64,000 nt of DNA from assembly GCA_020740775.1 (NCBI GenBank), contig JAHEWK010000030.1, positions 1-64,000 of the forward strand, in the 5' to 3' direction. The DNA comes from Ilyonectria destructans (taxonomy: Eukaryota > Ascomycota > Sordariomycetes > Hypocreales > Nectriaceae). The position numbers were made by a program, and so were the translations under genes. Below the pieces are notes generated by a model, which was not told the DNA's origin, did not search any database, and saw only the letters and a list, made by a program, of their open reading frames with translations. This document shows, in pieces, positions 45,420 to 51,826 of this stretch; positions within the stretch are counted from its first letter, which is position 1, and each line of letters begins with the position of its first letter.

Positions 45420-45887
45420 TTAATATTTTGTATACCAACCCCTAGCCTTGCGGCAGGCTTCGACCCTCCGCGGCATTAACTCCATTAGGCCCCGAATAAA
45501 GTCCTGTGGGATAGCATCCCACGTTTCTTCTAAGCATGCTTTAAATTTCGCGATATCGGCTGCGTTTTTCTTCAATTTCGCGACTCAAGGGAACTTCTTA
45601 TAGAGGTCTCTCTTTAGTCTGGCCCAGATGTGCTTAATGGGGTTCAAATCAGGGCTGTAGGGGGGCCAGTCAATAAGAGAGATTCTGTGCTCCAGAAGAA
45701 ATGCCGACGCCTTTAATATATAAATTCTAGTATTATCCTGCTGGAAATGCTGAACTCCTATATAATCAGGAAGAAGCCCAGAAGTCAGAGCTTCAATATA
45801 GCTATTTGATGTATAGCTACCGCACTTGGAGGCTGAATCCCGAGTTATAATAACCAGCCTGCTCCAGCCCTCCTTGTAAATCGCACC
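45420..45887 (-). pseudogene. Tc1/mariner transposase remnant
   Basis: C-terminal half only. Seen: FQQDNTRIYILK (second catalytic Asp region) and WPPYSPDLNPIKHIW, where the catalytic Glu of the DD34E triad (NPIE) is Lys. An in-frame TGA (45585-45587) follows KKFP, after which the frame continues to a natural-looking end RGWYTKY at 45420. Both changes are transitions consistent with RIP-like or ordinary decay. The N-terminal half is absent because an LTR-like sequence begins at 45888. Confidence 0.88.
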
Positions 45888-45911
45888 TGTCACGGTACCA
45901 GCCCCAGTCCT
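45888..45911. repeat. LTR-like sequence, left piece (split by the DUF6589-RecQ element)
   Basis: TGTCACGGTACCAGCC.. begins abruptly inside the Tc1 remnant and continues at 51117 after the 5.2-kb element (joined reading ..cagtcct then aggaactggg). A TG start fits an LTR. Its end is unclear and no target duplication was found. Confidence 0.45.
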
Positions 45912-46056
45912 TTACCTCAGTTCCTCAGGCCCTCTGTACCGGTGGCGGCTATGCGCGCTTACCAAAGCGCGCTAACCCGAACGGGTAACACCTACACAGA
46001 GGGCCTGAGCCCAATTTCCACATTTTTGGTGGCGTTGTCGTTCGCGGCTTTGTAAT
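45912..46056 (+). repeat. Left TIR of DUF6589-RecQ element, with internal hairpins
   Basis: 145 bp. Holds a 14-bp perfect stem ctcaggccctctgt (45924-45937) / acagagggcctgag (45996-46009) enclosing gcgcgctt-acca-aagcgcgc (8-bp stem) and acccg-aa-cgggt (5-bp stem): a branched cruciform. The DUF6589 gene starts 97 bp further in. Confidence 0.95.
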
Positions 46057-46152
46057 CATGCCATTCGTTCTTGCTCAACAGAAAATTTGCATGCGTTTGC
46101 AGTCAATTGTCAATTTGCGCCACCATTAATACATCTACATACCACTCTGGAT

Positions 46153-48661
46153 ATGACATCCGAAGCTTCGTCCACTACGGCCACACCTGAAGGCAGCACG
46201 TCTGGCTCTTCGCTGCTGCCACCCGTCAACAACAACCGCAGACGATCACCCCGCTCAGATGCTGAGAAGCTCGATATTGTATGCAATTTTATGCGAAACG
46301 AGCTCCGTTGGGGTGTTGCCGACCTTGTCACGGCATTAGCTTCCTCTGAAGGTTCTAATAATACTCGTCGAAAGGCTGCATTCGTAGCAGCGGCCTACAA
46401 GGACTCTGAGGTCCTGAGGTCCTACTTTCGCGATGCGGATCAACTGTGGGGTGACGGCAGGCAGTCTATCATCGAGACATTGGATCTGGGCGACAATGAG
46501 CTACGGAGAGAGGTGGAAAAACTAGGAACTATAGCACCATTTAACAAGTTCGATCCAACTTCCAAGAATGGAGACTTCGACGCGCTCGACATGGACCAAA
46601 CCCTAAATACGATACACAATGAGGCACCTCTGTTACTACAGCTTATCAGAGGCATCATGGCTCCTGAATCCCGGCGGAAGTATCAGCGCCAAAAAGAACC
46701 AGCTGCTCGAATTGTCGCCATCATATCAATCCTCTGCTTCTCGCAGCGCCAAAACACCTGTACCGGCTTTCAGACGACCCTAGGCCTCTACCTCCATTCT
46801 CAAGGTGTGAAGCGCCAACAGCTGGAGCTCCTTGGTCAACTCGGACTTGTCGTCAGTTACAACACCGTCATCCGAGCCATCAAAGAACAATCAACTCGGG
46901 CTGCGGCACGAGTAGAAAGAATGGGGCAGAGTGACGAGTCCGTGACGTCGTACGATAATTTCGAGGTAATGGAAGGCGTCAAGGAGCAGCGGGTTGATCA
47001 TCAAGGTACCTTCCATTCGGTGACGACGGGCCAGGTCATTCAAGGCATTGAAATACCGTCTGGTGGACTGCGACAAGATATGCTTGATTCTCGGGCGGAA
47101 ATATGCGCCAGTGACGTCTTCCTGGCCCCCGGGAATCGGGATGACGATATTAATCGTCAGGTATGTATTGATCCTTCATGCCCATGGCTTGGTGTTGAAC
47201 CGTCTTCAGTAGATATCACGATACTTTTCCTACGAAGCTATCAACACGATCTTCTCGAACGCCATCCCGGACGCTGCAAGGAAGCAACGTCCAGCAATGC
47301 CCGTTGTCGATGTTCTCGAACCTGTCAAGACTGTCCATTGCTCCCTTGGTCCTATTCCTCATGACGAGAGCAGTAATGCTGGTAATATCCTGATTCTTGA
47401 GAATATCTTTCAACATCAATATCACCTACCCGATTCCGCCTTTGAGCAGCGTTTATTCCTCATCTACGGTGACCAGAAGACCACGCAGCGGATTCGTTCG
47501 ATTAAGCAACGCAGGGAAGAAGCTCAGCGGCCTTGCGACAGGCTACAATGGGCGCTACCAGTACCGGCGCTCTTCCACCTCCGTATGAACTACCTCTACA
47601 TGATATCCAGACTCCACTTTGGCGGTCCTGGCAGCGATCAATCCACGTTATATGACGCCATGAACTTCTGGACAAGGAAAAGGATCAGCAAATCCAGCGC
47701 TGATTTCTACGCCCTAGAGCAGCTGATCATCCATAGCTTCCAGGCTAGAGTGTGCGCTTTGCTCTGGAATATGCTTGCTCAGTCTGGGCAGGGGATAGGC
47801 CTCGAGTTCGAAGACATCGCTCGAATGCTGGCTATTCACGATGCTGGAACCTTCTCACAACTCTTGGATAGGATCGTCGATTCTTACGGCAAATATGCCC
47901 GCTCGACTGATGACGAGGAGCTTCGGAACCACATTCTGTTCTTGCAGCACACTCAGACCTACCTGCTCCTGAAGTACTCAATCAAGCATGCGGATCTCGG
48001 CCTCTTGCGCCGAGCCATTGACCGCTGCTGCGTGTATTTCCATGGCTCAGGGCAATCGAGATATGCGTTTGAGATGCTGTACCTTCAGCGTCTCACGTCA
48101 ACGCGTGCTGCCACCCCGGAATTACAACGCGCGATACTTGCAAACGGACTTGTAAATCGTCAGGGCAAGGCGGATAGCTGGTATGAGACAGACAGGCTCG
48201 TGAAATTCCACAATGGCACTCTCAGGAAGCTACTCAACGCCAAACGTGGATCTTCTCTTACGCTGGATTATCTCTTCGAGCACTGTGCTCTAAATACCGA
48301 CTTCTTTGCCACTCTTGCCAAGCAGACAGAATCCTTTTACGGCATTCATCGGAGTAGCAAACATCCAGAGAAATCAGCGGAACGTGATATTAGGGTGATG
48401 GCTCAACGCTTATCGCACAGCAGGTCAATCGCTCTGCACAGTGGACGGACGGTTAAGCATAAAGCTACCGATGTGTTGGCAGCAGGGGCAATGTGCATTG
48501 CCGGCAAAGCGATAGCCAAGTTCAACAGAATGGCATGCAGCGTCGACTATGATTACTTGGAAGGAGATGAAGATGAACTAGACGATGGACAGGAAGACGA
48601 AGATGAAATCGACGAGGAACTTGGCCATTTTTTTGCAGTTGATCATGCCGACGAGGAGTAG
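46153..48661 (+). CDS. DUF6589-like protein, putative transposase (818 aa, two exons)
   Basis: Exon 1 46153-47160, intron 47161-47212 (GTATGT..TTCAGTAG), exon 2 47213-48661. Start is the first ATG in frame, MTSEASSTTA. The centre matches my memory of DUF6589: SYDNFEVMEGVKEQRVDHQG with HSVTTGQVIQG (~265-295), and LIYGDQKTTQRIRSIKQRR..WALPVPALFHLRMNYLY (~417-460). The Asp in YDNFE and in YGDQ resemble the first two acidic residues of an RNase-H-fold nuclease. Acidic C-terminus (DEDELDDGQEDEDE, ~780-800). Lies between long TIRs, tail to tail with a helicase, so a transposase role is inferred. No stop or frameshift seen. Confidence 0.8.
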
Positions 48662-48682
48662 AAGGGACTGATGTCTCCTGAT

Positions 48683-50643
48683 TTATCTATCGAGTTTGAG
48701 CTTTCGGAGCGTTGCTTGAAGGCATGCGTCCTGTATCACCTCGAGGACCTCCTTGCCGTACGAAGCCAGATCACCCCATTCCCCGTTGACTGCGTGTGCT
48801 AATGAACTAATAGAAGTAACCGTTGCACCCGTTCTTGATATCATGTTTACAGCTTTATCTGGAAGGATAAGCTCAGCTGGTGCAGCTGTGATAAAAGTCG
48901 GAAACAAGGTGCATGCTGCCTTTGCATCTCGCCACTCGACCAAAGCCAACTTCACCGCTTCGGTGATGTGCTTTTGAGATTGAACAATCCTGACAGGCCG
49001 CCCAGCCTTGCTGGAAGGTATCTTGACGTCGTCCCCTGCGCATTTGCTACAGCAGGAAACTGCCTCTGTCGGACGAGTGCATAATGCGCGGTTTTCGCCG
49101 AAGAACCTGAGTATGCCTCGCCGGATGCAAGTTGAACTATTGATTAATTCCCATATGCCTCGTGGTAAGGCGGATCGCTTCTCGCGCTCCGTCATCCCCT
49201 TTTTGAAGGATCGAAGCGGCAAGTGTTCCATACTCTCCCCAAAACACCAGGCAGGAACTAACCAGACGAACTTACCGCAGATTGCCTTACCCCGTGCAGC
49301 TCGGCCGGCCCGCTGCAATAAAGCCCCCATGCTGGGTGGGACCCCCCACTGAACGACGAGTCGGATATCTGGATTATCAATACCCATTCCCATGGCATCT
49401 GTGGCGACGATGATGCGATGCATTGAGCTATCCAAGACGCTCTCTGTGTCAGGCTTTTCGAACTCTGTGGATATACGCCTCTTATCAGGTTCTGCAAGCT
49501 GTGAATGATATGCCTGGACGGTATTGATGGCTGCCGTCTTTGAACAACCTGCCCGAATGAGTAGCGTTCTCAGTGCCCCGACCGCCTTCATGATCCGCGT
49601 TATCGAGTCAAGATAGACTATGGTCTTCGGAATTGTCTTGCAACAGGCACGACTGTCAGATCCTGCTCCCATCCGTTGATGTCGAGTTCTTGTGAAGAGT
49701 GCTTGAGCAGCAGCTGTACCGCCGCTTTTGAATGCCTCTCTTGCCATACTCTCCCTTCTCTCCTTAACAGCCTTCTCGATTGCCGCCTGCACCGGTTTAA
49801 CAAGGAACTCTAGATCGCGGAAACCGTCCATCCGATACTGAATTGCCTGAATTTCGAATGTTATGTTGGGTCTGTCAATGGAGGTTCGTTGAATGCGAAC
49901 GGAAGGGTCGAATCCGCTGAGATCTCGAACCTCAGCCAGCGTAACTGGATCAAGCGTTGCAGAACATCCCAGCCAAGGCACAGACCTGCTAATCAGATCT
50001 CGCAGCAAAGCCAATCCGCTGTATGAACTCCTCCAACGCAGACCCCACTCGCTGACCACGTGTAATTCGTCGATGGCCACCAATACGAGATGATCTTGAA
50101 AGGCCTGGTCGTATAGGACCTCCGTCTTGAACCTCTCTGACAATGCAATTTCTGGACTCAAAAGCACTGGGCCCCTCTGTTCAGCCGTGATGTTCGGTTG
50201 GCAACTGTCAACATGGAATTCCTACCGTGCGTGTATTTGCCGATTCGGATCTCATTAAGCAACGCGGCTTTATTTGACTGGCCGTTTAATACGCAAGGCC
50301 TGCAGTTGGGTATTCGAGCAATGGACTTGGCCTGCGGTGAAGATCAGTTATTTCATTGTTTTCCCATAATTGTCTGTGTGTCTCGCCACCGACTGACCTG
50401 GCCCTCTTCAAGCAGATTCAAGGGCATAATCATGAGACAAATGCCGCCTCGTAATGCCGGAATCGCTTGGAATACGGCACTCTTGCCCCATCCGGTAGGT
50501 GCAATCAGGATTAGGTCCTGCTGGTCGACAGCGAGTCTTCGTATTGCTTCTACCTGGCCGTCCCGGGGAGGGAAGTTGAGGAGGGTTGCCAATGTCGAGG
50601 GCAATGACTCAGGATCAGGGCAACACAATGGGGTATGTAGCAT
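48683..50643 (-). CDS. RecQ-family DNA helicase of the element (about 610 aa, 2-3 exons)
   Basis: ATG 50643; exon 1 to 50398 (FPPRDGQVEAIRRL, Walker A APTGWGKSAVFQ), intron 50397-50332 (GTCAGT..CCGCAG), exon 2 50331-50226 (AKSIARIPNCRPCVLNG..GKYTH), then the main exon ending at 48683. The latter shows PVLLSPEIALSERF, DEAD-box-type IDELHVVSEWG, GCSATLDP, MHRIIVATDAMGMGIDNPDI, and the arginine-finger motif LLQRAGRAARGK. A RecQ-type zinc cluster closes the core (CIRRGILRFFGENRALC..CCSKCAGDD). The junction between 50226 and ~50176 does not keep frame with the only GT donor I see, so either a splice site is missed or there is a one-base frameshift. Role inferred: 3'-5' unwinding during transposition or repair. 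Confidence 0.85.
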
Positions 50644-50971
50644 CACGATCAGTAGCGGAGGCTTCTATGTATCCCCAACTGTAATTTTCAAGAATAATTG
50701 AGGGCATCTTTTGCTGTTGTCATGTAACGGGCTGGGCCGTTGATATGTATTCGGCTAATGTCGATACCCTCGACGCCACTAAATGAAGGCAAAGCTCTTC
50801 GCAACCCCTGAGCTCGAGTATGTAGCTAGGTGCCAGCTCCACGCGAGCAACTTGTTGGTTTCCAAGCACGCTTCCGGCTGAATAAGCCCCGTGCCCCTTA
50901 CATGTCAGGCGTACGAGTAATCAGTCGATGAAACAGATATTGAAGATGGTGAATGGTAGTGCGTTTCGCAA

Positions 50972-51116
50972 ATTACAAAGCCGCGAACGACAACGCCACC
51001 AAAAATGTGGAAATTGGGCTCAGGCCCTCTGTGTAGGTGTTACCCGTTCGGGTTAGCGCGCTTTGGTAAGCGCGCATAGCCGCCACCGGTACAGAGGGCC
51101 TGAGGAACTGAGGTAA
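50972..51116 (-). repeat. Right TIR of DUF6589-RecQ element
   Basis: Exact reverse complement of 45912-46056 on inspection, with the same internal hairpins, followed by the 9-bp duplication (51117-51125). Between it and the RecQ ATG (50643) is 328 bp without a gene. Confidence 0.95.
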
Positions 51117-51826
51117 CCCAGTCCTAGGAACTGGGATATCACGTGACCACGTGATGTGGGTCACCCACTGTACATAGTAGCTTCGCGTCACCCATAGCTT
51201 CTTGCCTCTTCACGGCACAACAACGGTTCTAAGTCGACCCCAAGTTCCGTCCCGTGATAGGCGCAGAACGTGATGTAGCACATTGTAGACGGGATCATTG
51301 TGGGTACCTCTTTCATGGGCAATGGGAAGTACCACTTGTGTGCGGACTTTTGATTGGTGGAGATCCCCGTACAGTACATAGGTGAAGTGTTTTGATAGTC
51401 GATGGGATAAGTACGGACCGTAATGGCATTACGTGTATCGACAACGAGCCTCCTCTCCCGAGTGGTGTGCGGGGTTCGCTGGGACTTACGCCACAGTTCT
51501 CAGCGGAGCCTATGAGCTATTGGCGATGATATCGACGAATCTTAGCCTCGAAGAGGTCGTCACGGAGAACCGTCGCATGGATGTTACCCAGAAGGGTGGA
51601 TTCACATGCTCGACTCTACCGTACTGACATTGACATTCTGTTGGGTTATATACTGGATAATTCCAAGCTCTGATAATAAGCGGGGTACTCTGAACTTTTG
51701 CCCAAAATGGCGAGTTGTCCCACTTTCCAATGAAGCGCAAATGACGTAATTCTATTTGATCACGCTGTGCGGCCTTTAATAGTTCATTTATTAGTAACCT
51801 CACGCAGTCAAGAGGGACGGAGTGTA
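51117..51826. repeat. LTR-like continuation and degenerate flank
   Basis: Continues the sequence interrupted at 45911; starts with palindromic atcacgtgaccacgtgat (51139-51156). A plus-strand frame around 51433-51627 and the line ctgacattgacattctgttg at 51626 look like the decayed 3' part of a retroelement. No LTR end or duplication could be defined. Confidence 0.35.

Follow-up and report, generated by a model that had tools for sequence, protein, structure and literature searches.

The AcademH lineage of the Academ superfamily of DNA transposons reportedly goes back to Kojima (2020, Mob DNA 11:15). AcademH elements have target site duplications (TSDs) of 9 or 10 bp and encode a helicase (PMC10045372), occur at low copy number in Basidiomycota, Ascomycota, and Mucoromycota (PMC10799480), and a RecQ helicase is recorded in Academ (PMC3627910). 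In terms of target choice, sequence-specific integration is described as almost exclusive to retrotransposons that lack long terminal repeats, and Dada is an example of DNA transposons with defined insertion sites, which lie inside RNA genes and overlap the TSD (PMC3706591). The retrotransposons Tf1 and TRE5-A insert near, rather than in, their targets via host DNA-binding proteins, at positions that are not specific (PMC3706591). Here, we describe an element in a 64,000-nucleotide stretch of the fungus Ilyonectria destructans (contig JAHEWK010000030.1; hereafter, the window), which encodes a protein with the DUF6589 domain and a RecQ-type helicase. It is very likely a recently active cut-and-paste transposon of the AcademH type, in which the DUF6589 protein serves as the transposase and the helicase as an accessory factor, and which inserts at a fixed distance from the motif TCACGTGA. 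The presence of this motif near the insertion is the most unusual feature of the locus, and was absent from an earlier interpretation made without database searches (the sequence-only reading).

The sequence-only reading had described two genes between perfect long terminal inverted repeats (TIRs), flanked by a perfect 9-bp TSD, and this description held throughout (Table 1). The two TIRs are complementary at 145 of 145 positions (100%), CCCAGTCCT stands on both sides of the element, and the genes for the DUF6589 protein (two exons; spliced product, 818 amino acids) and the helicase (611 amino acids) are both intact. It had also claimed that the unit had moved, to be checked by looking for the TIR and for empty sites elsewhere, and the genome (71.67 Mb in 74 contigs) bears this out. 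Ten perfect TIRs were found, together with full-length copies on contigs C24 (the window), C9, C16, and C32 and one split copy on C31. The C24 and C9 copies are identical across 5205 bp, and the C32 and C16 copies share four differences from them over the same length. The C24 and C32 copies have perfect 9-bp TSDs of different sequences. The C16 copy, with an 8-bp TSD, is located in the same repeat as the C32 copy at nearly the same base, and their flanks align over 203 bp at 98% on the left and 658 bp at 97% on the right; it is either a duplicated locus or a second insertion into the same repeat, and was not counted as independent of C32. When the joined flanks of the window element were used as the query, an element-free target repeat was found at C29:350109–350213, with 105 bases matching at 100% across the junction, and another was found on C22 (98%). 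Both element-free sites represent separate repeat copies and are not allelic to the window locus. Outside this genome, no relative was detected when viral_contigs and genome_contigs were each scanned once.

Pattern scans for ends of the TTACCTCAG type recovered 21, 47, and 34 ends in overlapping sets. The loci that were collected contain 76 distinct ends for which 90 bp or more of flanking sequence is present. After six near-duplicates and five ends adjoining another element were dropped, 65 ends were used for the enrichment analysis. With no motif assumed and at most one mismatch allowed, the top 8-mer at 17–22 bp outside these ends, a range picked after the flanks had been inspected, was TCACGTGA, which was present in 27 of the 65 flanks. 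Across 14 bins of 6 bp, 26 flanks had the motif in the 18–23 bin and at most three had it in each of the 13 others. Of the 76 distinct ends, 30 had TCACGTGA at 17–22 bp. The core bases C, A, C, and T were present in all 30 of these flanks and each G in 28, and the outer T and outer A were present in 22 and 24, respectively, a conservation that is partly by construction, as the rows were selected at no more than one mismatch. No position other than the motif was conserved.

The same association was seen in an unselected, genome-wide count; TCACGTGA itself occurs 702 times in the genome. CACGTG followed by TTACCTCAG at 5–35 bp (the outer side) was found 38 times, versus three for the pattern written backwards, and TTACCTCAG followed by CACGTG at the same distances (the inner side) was found once, versus five. 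The spacing was 18–23 bp in 29 of the 38 matches, among which four ends were counted twice (two CACGTG in range) and C38 and C47 are identical sequences. Furthermore, 22 candidate pairs of ends were found in 16 loci, and 15 of these pairs had a TSD of 8–9 bp (13 exact, two with one mismatch). In all 15, the best match to TCACGTGA (seven exact, eight with one mismatch) was located 18–22 bp outside one end, although C16 and C32 are again not independent and the window element and locus L025 share a target repeat. The remaining seven comprise the C9 copy, the two pairs at locus L072, and cross-pairs from loci where elements are nested.

The association might also be a by-product of insertion into a small number of repeat families in which TCACGTGA is present by chance, given that several targets are repeats, that some flanks cluster, and that the window element, L025, and L029 lie in one shared repeat. 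This explanation is highly improbable and was rejected. When the flanks were clustered by similarity, 17 of 45 clusters had TCACGTGA in at least one member, and when a single representative was taken from each cluster, the motif was present in 16 of 45, whereas 2000 shuffles averaged 0.09 and never exceeded 2. The flanks have no conserved base besides the motif, the spacing tracks the element family, and insertions occur on either side of the palindrome. It is likely, instead, that the insertion point is set by TCACGTGA, which is read either directly or via a host E-box protein that acts as a landing beacon, with a lineage-specific ruler of 13, 12, or 10 bp.

The gap between the motif and the TSD was 13, 12, or 10 bp, largely according to family. 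It was 13 bp in all three insertions of the window family (C16 included); 13, 13, and 12 bp in a second family on C14; 12 bp in all three elements with CCCAC-type ends and in one CCCGAGC-type element; and 10 bp in all five with CCATT/CCAGT-type ends. At the C9 locus (L021), a single TCACGTGA has a window-type element on one side, at 22 bp, and a CCCAC-type element on the other, at 21 bp. Distinct elements have inserted at an identical base within a repeat, namely the window element and L025, in opposite orientations, and L024 and L078, and at L029 and L081 the insertion lies past the motif in copies of the target repeats of the window and L024. The DUF6589 gene at C14:539769, whose product has 35% identity to the window protein, adjoins an end of the 10-bp type. 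A spacing that differs between families whose transposases have diverged (35% identity) favors a geometry that the transposase dictates. Ends of at least two types at L062, L065, L066, L067, L068, and L071 share the flank aaccgag[tc]tcc, and one repeat has therefore been targeted repeatedly at the same base. At L075 (C24:254819–255719), two short elements are arranged head to tail and separated by a single 8-bp CACACGCA, an arrangement that would be expected if the second element had reused the target of the first. On the left side of the window element, a partial DDE_3 (Tc1/mariner-like) transposase (window positions 45585–45911, minus strand; Pfam E-value, 2.1e-8) adjoins the element, and the target repeat starts at 45888.

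In terms of class, the element probably belongs to a known one, AcademH, an assignment made from the description (helicase, TSD, and host) rather than from the transposase sequence, and the undescribed class suggested by the sequence-only reading is correspondingly not upheld. The 9-bp TSDs of the window and C32 copies fall within the AcademH range of 9–10 bp, the 611-residue RecQ-like protein corresponds to the superfamily II helicase of AcademH, and the fungal host and low copy number also agree. On the other hand, the wider TTACCTCAG group also has 8-bp TSDs and includes a helicase-free sister family, and an insertion point set by a motif is not mentioned for AcademH in the available excerpts. 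KolobokH is also fungal and combines a DDD/E transposase and a RecQ helicase (PMC9587614), and among Mutator-like elements (MULEs), to which the sequence-only reading had likened the long TIRs and the TSD, maize Mu has 9-bp TSDs and TIRs of approximately 215 bp (PMC2774946). Nevertheless, membership in either group is scarcely credible. Kolobok elements have TTAA duplications (PMC9587614), whereas the TSDs here are 8–9 bp and none is TTAA-specific, and KolobokH was rejected on this ground. The RecQ gene of KolobokH is located downstream of the transposase, whereas the helicase here is on the opposite strand, an arrangement also described for one red-alga Kolobok, with RecQ on the complementary strand (PMC9587614). 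The MULE comparison was rejected because PF10551, the profile named in PMC8290104, was absent from the Pfam scans of the exons and the spliced protein, which contained no MULE domain; DUF6589 was the only significant domain in the transposase candidate.

The proposal that the first protein is the best transposase candidate was supported, at the level of a candidate, and the profile check suggested for it returned DUF6589 (PF20231; profile positions 18–410 of 410). Ten DUF6589 matches were found genome-wide: five in copies of the window element, three in the second family on C14, one at C14:539769, and one remnant on C10. The C14 second-family protein has 83% identity to the window protein. The blocks YDNF, GDQ, and YAFE are common to these two proteins and that of C14:539769, and hold D268, D423, and E623 (window numbering), which are invariant in the three relatives and are proposed as a candidate catalytic triad. 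A Pfam scan of the DUF6589 protein at E-values of up to 10 detected no link to any DDE family, and no mention of DUF6589 was found in the literature searched. At L027, a 506-residue frame on the minus strand, near a diverged DUF6589 element on C14, contains a CCHC knuckle and, by eye, resembles a retrotransposon Gag protein.

The helicase gene has introns of 66 and 59 bp, which, like that of the DUF6589 gene, were placed by eye. Its product contains APTGWGKS, DELH, GCSAT, MGID, and QRAGRAAR, followed by a Cys-rich stretch, and we take these to have the roles familiar from such helicases. It matched RecQ chains in the PDB (best E-value, 3.7e-28), and the Pfam domains DEAD and Helicase_C scored above their cut-offs; the RecQ family model gave an E-value of 6.2e-43 but 147.3 bits, under its curated cut-off of 219.8 bits. 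The second family on C14 (L024, L025, and L026) is a sister family of 3363 bp with perfect 192-bp TIRs and a DUF6589 gene. Its three copies on this one contig are identical across 3363 bp, have different flanks, and carry TSDs of 8, 9 (one mismatch), and 9 bp. Inside the unit, the transposase gene accounts for both of the open frames that reach 120 residues, and a search of the whole genome with the helicase DNA gave nine matches, none of which was on C14. Because this helicase-free family has also moved, the helicase is dispensable in cis, which agrees with the accessory role that the sequence-only reading had assigned to it.

Table 1. Features of the transposon, its genes, and its target (window positions).
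Feature	Position	Strand	Remarks
Whole transposon	45912..51116	+	5205 bp; perfect TIRs, TSD, additional genomic copies
Left TIR	45912..46056	+	145 bp
Right TIR	50972..51116	-	145 bp
Left TSD CCCAGTCCT	45903..45911	.	9 bp, perfect
Right TSD CCCAGTCCT	51117..51125	.	9 bp, perfect
Inverted pair within left TIR	45924..46009		Arms 45924-45944 and 45989-46009; conserved in related ends
Inverted pair within right TIR	51019..51104		Arms 51019-51039 and 51084-51104; same as left
Target motif TCACGTGA	51139..51146	.	13 bp past right TSD, 22 bp from element; sole occurrence in window
Target repeat, left part	45888..45911	.	Resumes at 51117; query positions 65-169 match C29 uninterrupted
Target repeat, right part	51117..51206	.	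To limit of query
DUF6589 protein, exon 1	46153..47160	+	Splice by eye, open frame across junction; proposed catalytic D268
DUF6589 protein, exon 2	47213..48661	+	PF20231, E 6.7e-70; proposed D423, E623
RecQ-type helicase gene	48683..50643	-	Exons 50643-50398, 50331-50226, 50166-48683; 611 aa

Several observations weigh against the reading of the unit as an AcademH-type transposon with motif-spaced insertion. Of the 76 flanks, 46 lacked the motif at 17–22 bp, approximately half being expected to do so, as the motif is one-sided; two single ends, L079 and L085, deviate from their family spacing, with the motif 21 and 17 bp from the element, respectively; at L072, neither pair of ends has a TSD; and the target data all come from one genome. 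When exon 2 alone was modeled with AlphaFold from the single sequence, the mean pLDDT confidence score was 38.7, which leaves an RNase H fold unconfirmed. The C9 copy has no matching TSD and its flanks are unlike, and the C31 copy is split into two parts in opposite orientations approximately 30 kb apart (L022, C31:113382–114117; L023, C31:144332–148807); neither is accepted as an ordinary insertion. The two C31 parts overlap by 7 bp of element sequence (730–736), and GGATGATAG, which ends the left flank of one of them, also forms the first 9 bp of the right flank of C9; because it is common to both flanks, the C9 and C31 ends look like one split insertion. Between the remaining two flanks, the only shared sequence is GGGGG. 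Judging from these junctions, identical copies may have recombined and thereby split a single insertion, or the contigs may be misassembled. In the wider TTACCTCAG group, seven of 15 TSDs were 9 bp and eight were 8 bp, versus 9–10 bp in AcademH, and membership in AcademH is deduced from its description and not from a comparison of transposases. These last two points, together with the lack of a Pfam link to any DDE family, would suit a separate superfamily of DUF6589 elements that resembles AcademH only in its helicase and TSD length. We consider this unlikely, as the helicase, the 9-bp TSD of the window family, and the fungal host fit AcademH (PMC10045372, PMC10799480, and PMC3627910).

The most likely mechanism is as follows. 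In 47 of 75 ends, the outer block recurs farther in as an inverted copy (at most two mismatches in 12), versus one in the control, and the outer and inner blocks covary between families (CCCTCT with AGAGGG and CCATTT with AAATGG). This covariation suggests that each end holds two recognition sites, or possibly forms a hairpin. The DUF6589 protein would bind these paired inverted sites and act as a DDD/E transposase, and the assembly on the end sites would capture a target at a fixed distance from TCACGTGA, on either side of the palindrome. A staggered cut of 8–9 bp, followed by joining, would then produce the duplication of 8–9 bp. The spacing geometry would come from the transposase, either alone or docked on a host basic helix–loop–helix protein such as Cbf1, which we take to bind TCACGTGA, and the reader of the motif would accordingly be the transposase or such an E-box protein. 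A ruler of 13, 12, or 10 bp corresponds to approximately 1.7 to 2 helical turns from the center of the motif to that of the target duplication. The helicase is an unlikely reader because the helicase-free C14 family obeys the same rule, unless a helicase is supplied in trans; it may help by unwinding ends or repair intermediates, and would not be needed in cis.

What looks new is the choice of target, the AcademH-like class itself being probably known. No motif-spaced target rule was found in the literature searched, although the founding description of AcademH, which was outside the search, may cover targets. Searches for CACGTG with the insertion preferences of transposable elements in fungi gave nothing in the same literature, and neither TCACGTGA nor CACGTG appeared among the matches listed for the broader literature on insertion targets. 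Unlike the Dada sites, the motif here lies 10–13 bp outside the TSD, and, unlike the positions of Tf1 and TRE5-A, it stands at a distance that shifts by no more than a few bases overall and hardly at all within a family.

Eukaryotic DNA transposons seldom choose their targets strictly, and the family-linked spacing of 10–13 bp makes target selection directly testable and may be of use in targeted integration. A sister family that naturally lacks the helicase likewise offers a way to test what the RecQ gene contributes. Finally, these results tie DUF6589, a Pfam domain of unknown function, to a transposon that has recently been active.

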